A stretch of DNA of 64,000 bases, from the NCBI GenBank assembly GCA_015068905.1, contig SVJQ01000004.1:1-64000 (forward strand), written 5' to 3'. Below are positions 53,933 to 58,104 of the stretch, one piece after another (position 1 is the stretch's first letter; each line of letters starts with the position of its first letter). This DNA is from Oscillospiraceae bacterium. Lineage in GTDB: Bacteria; Bacillota; Clostridia; UBA1381; UBA9506. The notes beneath the pieces were generated by a model. That model was not told the origin of the DNA, ran no database searches, and was given only the letters and a program-made list of their open reading frames with translations. The position numbers and the translations under genes are program-made.

Positions 53933-55666
53933 TTACTCTGCAAACGCATATTCGCCCATAAACAGAATTTCGCCGTTTGTGTTATCACGAATCACAAAGG
54001 TAAAGGGCTTATTATATTTTACCTCTATGGGTTCGGGCGGAAGGGCTGAGCCTGCCATACCGAGTGCTGTGACTGCAGCTGCCTCTGTTCCCTCTTCATC
54101 CACACTGATGTAGGTTTTATGGATAGCAGAGTCAATCCACATATTGCCGCTATCAAACATATTTTGAAATTCTGCATCTTTGGTAAAAGCTTTCGCGATG
54201 CCCATCACCTGCAGAATGTCATTGAGCCCCGTGCTGTATTCTACTTTAAATTTCGGCACGGATAAAGCCACATACTCAGATTCAAAGCTTGCATTTTTAA
54301 GGACTGCCTCAGGACTGAATGCCCCGTCACCCATCAAAAGATACATGCTGACATCCATATCCTCAAGCTTTTTGGTCTCAACATATTCCCCTTTTTCGTT
54401 GAACACATCTTCTCTTGTCTGATACGGCAGAGACACAATGGTCACGCCATCAGCTTCAGCATATTGCATCCAGGCGGTGCGATTCATAAAATCAATTTTA
54501 GTTTCCTGACCGTTTCTGTCAGTAAACACGTCCTCTGCAGTAGCACCTTTGTTAAACTCCTTGAGCCATCTGCCTTTAAAATAAACGGCATTGACAAGCA
54601 TTGCCCAGAAGTCTTTGTTATCTTCTGTAATAATAGCAGGAATTTTACCTGTTGTCTTCTCGTCTACCCAGCTATTTATGCGGCTCACAGCATTCTTATT
54701 GTTCACAATGTCAGCCGTAGCACCAAAAACCTCGGCAAGCTGATTGGTATAAGCCTGCGAAAAACGCTGCGCCGTCTTATCGCTGTTAATCCAGACAGAG
54801 TTGGCAACCTGAAGCCTCAGCAAGTCAGACTGTGCATATTTTGCAAGCATATTTTGAATTTCTTTATTATAAGCATCTAAATCCTCTACGCCCACAGCGC
54901 TCAGAATTTCATCACGAGTCTCGCCATCTGCGCCGTTTGCCGCCATTAAAAGCGCCATTTTGATAGATAATGGCGAGAACATATAGTTCTGATTCTCCGG
55001 CATCTGCGCGTTCATGTTGTCTGCAAAAGTAACGGCTACATTCCGGCTGCCTGTAATGGCGTCGTACATCCGAACCAAGGTTGCCACTGCCTGCTCTGCG
55101 GTATAGGCGCCCTTCGGGCTGAATCGGTTTTCACCCACGCCCTGCATAATACCCATGTTACAAACATTTTGCACCGCACTCATTGCCCAATCGGAAATCT
55201 CTGTTTCATCATCAAACAGATAATACACCTCGTGGTGTGCAAGGCTTGCAAATAAGCCGATTCTGTCTAAAATGGTTGCAGCCTCTTCACGGGTCAGCGG
55301 TGCCTTCGGGTCAAACAGTCCGTTGCCTTTGCCTGCAACAATGCCTAGGGCATATAGTGCTAAAACCTTTTCATTGTCAGTGTCCGCAAATGCCTTCGGA
55401 TAAACATTGCCGCCATGTCCGCCCATCGCCTTATCCAGCATATTATAGGCAAGCTCACAAAACTGTTCACGGGTAATATTTCGGGTCCAAGAGACCTTAA
55501 AAGCATTTGTAATCCCAAGGCTGTCCGCCTGTGCAACATATTCCATTGCCCAGTCGCTAGGGGCTCCCATGTCTCCGTGGCCAAGCTCAGCACTATCAGT
55601 TATTACCGGCACACTCGCTATAAAAAGCATAGCCACCATCAAAAACATTGATAACACTTTTTTCAT
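53933..55666 (-). CDS. SLH-domain-containing serpin (cell-surface serine/cysteine protease inhibitor)
   Basis: Signal peptide, N-terminal SLH repeats (ITREQFCELAYNML, LTREEAATILDRIG, YTAEQAVATLVRMYDA), C-terminal serpin fold (NYMFSPLSIKMALLMAANGADGETRDEIL; hinge DEEGTEAAAVTALG; NKPFTFVIRDNTNGEILFMG). Confidence 0.93.
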   Translation of the reverse strand: MKKVLSMFLMVAMLFIASVPVITDSAELGHGDMGAPSDWAMEYVAQADSLGITNAFKVSWTRNITREQFCELAYNMLDKAMGGHGGNVYPKAFADTDNEKVLALYALGIVAGKGNGLFDPKAPLTREEAATILDRIGLFASLAHHEVYYLFDDETEISDWAMSAVQNVCNMGIMQGVGENRFSPKGAYTAEQAVATLVRMYDAITGSRNVAVTFADNMNAQMPENQNYMFSPLSIKMALLMAANGADGETRDEILSAVGVEDLDAYNKEIQNMLAKYAQSDLLRLQVANSVWINSDKTAQRFSQAYTNQLAEVFGATADIVNNKNAVSRINSWVDEKTTGKIPAIITEDNKDFWAMLVNAVYFKGRWLKEFNKGATAEDVFTDRNGQETKIDFMNRTAWMQYAEADGVTIVSLPYQTREDVFNEKGEYVETKKLEDMDVSMYLLMGDGAFSPEAVLKNASFESEYVALSVPKFKVEYSTGLNDILQVMGIAKAFTKDAEFQNMFDSGNMWIDSAIHKTYISVDEEGTEAAAVTALGMAGSALPPEPIEVKYNKPFTFVIRDNTNGEILFMGEYAFAE

Positions 55667-55744
55667 CAAAACATCCCCTTTCAAATAAGGTTTTCCTTTA
55701 CCTATGTTACCTTCATTCTAGCATATCACTTGATAAATTGCAAG

Positions 55745-56124: not shown

Positions 56125-56200
56125 GCTGGTGTGGCTCAGTCGGTAGAGCAGCTGATTCGTAATCAGCAGATCGTCGGTTCAAGTCCGATCACCAGCTCCA
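56125..56200 (+). tRNA. tRNA-Thr (anticodon CGT), CCA encoded
   Basis: GCTGGTG acceptor stem pairs CACCAGC; anticodon arm GCTGA-TTCGTAA-TCAGC; GGTTCAAGTCC T-loop; 3' CCA. Confidence 0.95.
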
Positions 56201-56232
56201 AAAAAAGACTTGTCAATTGACAAGTCTTTTTT
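56200..56232 (+). terminator. Rho-independent terminator after tRNA
   Basis: AAAAAAGACTTGTCAATTGACAAGTCTTTTTT. Confidence 0.9.
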
Positions 56233-56235
56233 CTA

Positions 56236-56405
56236 TGAAATAAATCCTGACGTATTTGTGAAATACCCTTCGGGTGTGAAATATCGCTACGCAATATGAA
56301 ATGCCTGCGGCATGAAAGGATTTATTTTATTTCACATTTTGCGATAGCAAAATATTTCATAATCCGTAGGATTCTTTCATATCGAGCAAAGCGAGATATT
56401 TCACA
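56236..56405. repeat. Array of six mini-hairpins separated by GAAAT / ATTTC spacers
   Basis: TGAAATA-CCCTTCGGG-TGTGAAAT-ATCGCTACGCAAT-ATGAAAT-GCCTGCGGC-ATGAAA ... TTTCAC-ATTTTGCGATAGCAAAAT-ATTTCAT-AATCCGTAGGATT-CTTTCAT-ATCGAGCAAAGCGAGAT-ATTTCAC. Confidence 0.8.
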
Positions 56406-56439
56406 AAAAAACAGCCTCTGCAAAAGCAGAGGCTGTTTT
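56405..56439 (-). terminator. Rho-independent terminator of groESL
   Basis: AAAAAACAGCCTCTGC-AAAA-GCAGAGGCTGTTTT. Confidence 0.9.
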
Positions 56440-56460
56440 AATTTACCTTTTATGTGTTTC

Positions 56461-58104
<1,644 letters not shown>

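Follow-up and report, generated by a model that had tools for sequence, protein, structure and literature searches.

The 64,000-nt stretch of DNA that was analyzed, which is called here the window, contains an array of seven hairpins, preceded by a head hairpin, between a tRNA-Thr (CGT) gene and the terminator of groEL. The tRNA gene, which would be the insertion target, was located with ARAGORN at 56125..56200 on the plus strand, and its CCA occupies positions 56198-56200 of this strand. The head hairpin, AAAAAAGACTTGTC-AATT-GACAAGTCTTTTTT (56201..56232, plus strand), follows directly after the CCA, and in the window copy it looks like a terminator of the tRNA. The array itself (56236..56403, plus strand) has the plan S0 hp1 S1 hp2 S2 hp3 S3 hp4 C S3' hp5 S2' hp6 S1' hp7 S0'. 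Its direct spacers are TGAAAT, at 56236, 56259, 56277, and 56297 of the plus strand, while the inverted spacers are ATTTCA, at 56329, 56354, and 56398, and CTTTCA, at 56374. The first hairpin, hp1 (AAATCC-TGACG-TATTTG, 56242..56258, plus strand), begins with the left arm L (AAATCC, 56242-56247, plus strand), which covaries with the centre C (GGATTTATTTT, 56318..56328, plus strand), its complement. The right end of the array is adjoined by the groEL terminator (56408..56439, minus strand), and the groEL ORF extends over 56461-58089.

A first-pass annotation, made from the sequence alone, had described this region as six hairpins with spacers that change orientation at the centre. All the elements that it named were found in place, including the flip of the spacers and the echo of TGAAATAAATCC in GGATTTATTTTATTTCA. 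The six hairpins are present, while the seventh, hp1, and the head hairpin had been overlooked. The observation that the hairpin cores differ while the spacers are conserved also held. The array was not classified as a CRISPR, because its hairpins vary and its spacers flip. Elsewhere in the window a 583-aa ORF (53933-55684, minus strand) appears by eye to consist of S-layer-homology repeats fused to a serpin, and a glycine riboswitch (RF00504) is located at 1802-1908 of the minus strand.

On both strands, none of 200 dinucleotide-shuffled sequences folded as well as the element (z about -4.3); these shuffles and the copy number given below rule out chance palindromes. The arm L can pair either with the right arm of hp1 or with the centre C. 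Of 60 copies, which represent 11 L classes, 54 had an exact complement of L in their own centre, as compared to 20% for centres taken from other classes; the observed mean was reached in none of 300 permutations, a kind of statistic that is inflated by the relatedness of the sequences. The letters flanking the spacers were complementary between the two halves in 82% and 91% of cases versus 50% and 53% after shuffling, values that relatedness also inflates. The hairpin arms keep their complementarity while their sequence changes. A rod formed by pairing of S with S', with hairpins on its two sides, was also evaluated for the window copy; as RNA it comes within 2.6 kcal/mol of the optimal fold, whereas as DNA it lies 5.4 kcal/mol above the optimum. 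The S:S' complementarity alone could also mark a double-stranded motif that is used both ways.

Gut-1 identity and dispersal of the element

The left half of the element matches Gut-1 RNA, Rfam family RF01706. The cmscan match at 56233..56307 of the plus strand scored 68.8 bits (E 1.2e-11), above the curated cut-off of 50 bits, while the right half gave a weak reverse match (56349..56444, minus strand) of 34.1 bits, under the cut-off. The Gut-1 model spans one half of the element. The home genome, which comprises 35 contigs and 1.73 Mb, has 15 Gut-1 matches, most of them as convergent pairs, and the element is therefore composed of two inverted halves. The first-pass annotation had proposed a BLAST search for copies and held that a single copy, with no related arrays in relatives and neither a transcript nor insertion/deletion polymorphism, would refute its reading. 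The search detected six whole copies in the home genome, and related arrays and variable occupancy of sites were found as well, so that this refutation does not apply. Within the order, 31 of the 95 genomes have Gut-1 matches, with a maximum of 17 per genome, and the array plan recurs in dozens of other genomes, which bears out the impression of the first-pass annotation that similar arrays exist in other gut Clostridia. The genomes compared were mostly metagenome assemblies. In being short, dispersed, and present in many copies, and in having fuller, gene-bearing relatives, the element resembles MITE-like non-autonomous elements.

Gut-1 was originally reported among probable noncoding RNAs, with the remark "Human gut only" (Weinberg et al. 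2010; PMC2864571). Its range is wider than that, with arrays located upstream of PF05635 genes in goat, sheep, deer, yak, and buffalo assemblies. In the open-access papers searched, preprints excluded, RF01706 was named by the 2010 original alone. The suggestion of the first-pass annotation that the array could be a structured transcript agrees with this existing label, which denotes a predicted RNA.

Position behind tRNA genes and occupancy of orthologous sites

The copies start directly after the CCA of a tRNA, on the same strand as the tRNA, with the junction CCA/GAAAAAAG-hairpin-CTTTTTTC-AAYGAAAT. Of 57 arrays with a head hairpin for which sufficient sequence was available upstream, 43 had a same-strand tRNA ending at most 90 nt away, and 14 isotypes were represented. 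At the 80 PF05635 loci described below a tRNA was found upstream in 60, always on the same strand (60/60) and from 13 isotypes, with an expectation of 0.013 per 700 bp. In the relatives the head hairpin, CCA/GAAAAAAG...CTTTTTTC, is part of the unit. Its frame is conserved, and the sequence of its stem changes yet stays self-complementary. Other repeats were also seen behind tRNA genes. A different repeat family, CGTCGGAACAAG...CTTGTTCCG and then GTCACTTGCTTCACTGTTCCTCC, starts directly behind tRNA CCA ends at five loci (L002, L003, L103, L114, and L122), and it can finish in the tail that home-family units have. In a further type of unit behind tRNAs (L149, L099, and L157) a second copy of the tRNA 3' end is present, TCCCATCTCCAGCTCCA being one example, as in classic integrase insertions.

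The occupancy of orthologous tRNA sites is variable, as was observed at species level for tRNA-Cys and tRNA-Thr; neither a strain-level empty site nor an excised form was found among these species-level comparisons. The orthologous tRNA-Cys genes of 15 genomes have an identical 3' end, while the sequence after the CCA mostly differs from the first bases on. At this site G000 has an array of type A and G019 has type B with a tail. G014 and G015 both have a G-type unit that includes a PF05635 gene, while the remaining genomes have other repeats or plain terminators. The first-pass annotation had also proposed to look for empty sites at orthologous tRNA-Thr genes, and the array is indeed absent there from G006 and G008. 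The tRNA-Thr of G006 is identical over 78 aligned bases and is followed by a plain terminator, yet the tRNA-ferredoxin block is inverted relative to groEL, and the site was not accepted as a clean empty one. In G008 groEL is 99% identical. The tRNA-Thr (CGT) gene of the latter genome (L155 and L160/L161) seems split, with parts overlapping by about 8 query bases, and this appears to be the pattern expected from integration inside the gene. The tRNA-Pro/secD site in the genus of G021 was rejected as a clean empty site, because its neighbors are not syntenic. The dispersed copies, the variable occupancy of orthologous tRNA sites, and the gene-bearing relatives speak for the non-autonomous mobile element that the first-pass annotation had listed among its possibilities.

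The PF05635 gene, cargo, and right tail

Several home-family copies of the array adjoin a gene for PF05635, the four-helix-bundle protein of 23S rRNA intervening sequences; the nearest solved structure to this protein is 2rld. The PF05635 alignment was scanned against named genomes and 80 loci were kept, all of them belonging to Clostridia-type genomes, most of which are assemblies from animal guts. At least five hairpins were present within 320 nt upstream of the gene at 78 of 79 loci, compared to none in shuffled sequence and two downstream. Judged from the sequences, the PF05635 gene is linked to the arrays, and the link is one of position. Home-family PF05635 genes also have arrays with other spacers, which are AGCTAAAT, TGGTATT/AATATCAC, GCGATATA, TCGATATG, and ATGAATTG, and each of these recurs as its complement in the second half of the array; some other home-family genes sit in different inverted-repeat contexts. 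For the array spacer type of some genomes, such as G008, a PF05635 gene of the same type was not found, and in the high-copy genome G021 most of the arrays examined had no PF05635 gene and one had it. Outside this set, PF05635 genes that lie between short tandem repeats in inverted orientation were seen on a Nostoc plasmid (L283), a Treponema plasmid (L284), and a viral contig (L279). Such repeat-flanked genes in other phyla hint that structured repeats are a general companion of the protein family. The Coxiella intervening sequence has heptamer repeats too (PMC4990558). Carriage by phages or plasmids was considered and rejected, close PF05635 relatives being few there.

At half of the loci (40/80) the PF05635 gene is followed, within 40 nt, by the start of an ORF that is 70 aa or longer, and in 24 cases the two overlap by 4 nt. 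These cargo ORFs vary and include GNAT acetyltransferases, HAD, SfsA, MazG, a WapI-like immunity protein, kinases, a short-chain dehydrogenase, and others. Neither a recombinase nor a transposase was consistently linked to the units among neighbors and cargo, no reverse transcriptase was seen among the cargo, and no Y1 (RAYT) transposase was present among the Pfam matches of the cargo listed. The REP-associated tyrosine transposase that the first-pass annotation had named as a possible partner was not seen in the units, where the accompanying gene is that of PF05635.

Units of the home family end in the tail GCATCTAAACCATTCGGCTCTTCCA. Of 20 genomes, 14 contain this tail, at 33 places in all, while a reversed control pattern gave 0; at least one of the tail matches falls within an unrelated ORF. 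The tail comes after arrays, PF05635 genes, or other ORFs, and downstream of it lies either a terminator or the head of a further unit. Other genera have different tails. The home-family tail ends in CCA and, from a T-arm shape recognized by eye, it could mimic the 3' half of a tRNA. That it duplicates the 3' end of the target tRNA was rejected, as the tail stays constant behind different tRNAs, with CCA mostly being all that the two have in common; a single case with a longer shared end (L259, GCTCACCA) was left aside. The C-terminus of a tyrosine recombinase was found before the tail at two places, both cut by contig ends, and with just these two neighbors the enzyme was rejected as a standard partner. 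The window copy has neither the right tail nor the PF05635 gene, and it is therefore regarded as non-autonomous.

Proposed mobile unit and comparison with known systems

Because the full form of the unit has a four-helix protein and changing cargo, the array does not look like an RNA that stands by itself but like the front end of an undescribed mobile unit. We consider it probable that the unit, with the array as its left end, joins at tRNA CCA ends. The fuller unit would have the order tRNA-CCA, head hairpin, hairpin array, PF05635 gene, often a cargo gene, and right tail. One strand of the array would fold, with the complementary spacers paired as a rod bearing the hairpins, the four-helix-bundle protein would bind the folded array, and an enzyme from elsewhere would help the protein, with the unit being inserted after the CCA. 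It is the binding of the array by the PF05635 protein, the folded strand as its substrate, and the joining at the CCA that we infer here. A broader and more tentative proposal, which we hold to be possible rather than likely, is that these units could be an undescribed class of mobile gene cassettes that insert directly behind the CCA of any tRNA gene, with a folded hairpin rod as recognition end and, as their own factor, the PF05635 protein, for which no catalysis is known, which would explain both Gut-1 and the origin of the 23S intervening sequences. No earlier report of such a unit was found in the open-access literature, preprints excluded, and the terms "four helix bundle protein", "tRNA gene", and "mobile genetic element" did not occur jointly in any of the open-access papers searched.

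Movement via RNA was also considered, in which the array would be transcribed, the PF05635 protein would serve as an Avd-like helper, and an outside reverse transcriptase would copy the RNA into the tRNA 3' end. This explanation is kept because PF05635 resembles Avd of diversity-generating retroelements, which has a related four-helix-bundle fold (PMC10053308), and it is consistent with the good folding of the hairpins as RNA and with the CCA-ending home-family tails, which by eye may mimic a tRNA 3' half. However, the terminator-like head hairpin should halt transcription coming from the tRNA, and a promoter-like sequence was recognized by eye after the array, which together place the array outside the likely PF05635 message; the cargo is also without a reverse transcriptase, and the RNA route seems unlikely. 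The Rfam match, the original report (Weinberg et al. 2010), and the arm covariation would also suit an expressed noncoding RNA that was spread between tRNA operons by recombination, with PF05635 as a regulatory or binding partner that has no role in mobility. This appears quite unlikely, since the adjacency to 13-14 tRNA isotypes, the variable occupancy, the cargo, and the tails are better suited to a mobile unit. The spacers are the most constant part of the array, and every subfamily uses a spacer of its own that occurs in both orientations, which could suggest a double-stranded site whose spacer is read both ways by a protein, with the hairpins as by-products of repeated palindrome formation. 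Such a site does not require the arm and L:C complementarity, which is kept despite sequence change, and we find this explanation highly improbable.

With the array as the left end of a mobile unit, the orphan family Gut-1 gains a context and probably another nature, that of a mobile-element end. The PF05635 family gains a natural candidate substrate, by which the mobility of 23S rRNA intervening sequences becomes directly testable. The units also point to a way in which single genes could come to accumulate behind the tRNA genes of gut bacteria.

Gut-1 RNA (RF01706) matches the left half of the element in sequence and structure, but in the present case it forms one of the two halves of a longer inverted element, which lies behind a tRNA and is linked to PF05635. 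Where 23S rRNA intervening sequences come from and what they do was called unclear, and a mobility role of their ORF is an earlier, unproven proposal (PMC4990558). These sequences (S23/IVP, PF05635) share with the present units the protein family, the adjacent structured DNA, and insertion in or beside structured RNA genes, while the units differ in targeting the tRNA 3' end and in having hairpin arrays, cargo, and protein-less copies; the window copy, which is one of the latter, is not located in a 23S rRNA helix. Unlike Avd and diversity-generating retroelements, the units were seen without a template repeat, a variable repeat, or a reverse transcriptase. REP and REPIN sequences are short palindromes that occur in many copies and are presumably mobilized by a protein whose gene lies elsewhere. 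The present units are likewise short, palindromic, and multi-copy, but the cores of the array hairpins vary rather than being shared, the spacers are constant, the plan is an inverted one with seven hairpins, the target is a tRNA, and PF05635 takes the place of the Y1 transposase of REP/REPIN with RAYT. Integron cassettes have a changing cargo of single genes, are sometimes arranged in tandem, and have folded attC sites. The units described here also have a single changing cargo gene, are sometimes in tandem, and have predicted folded sites, but they have no consistently linked integrase, they target tRNA 3' ends, and they carry their structured part in front.
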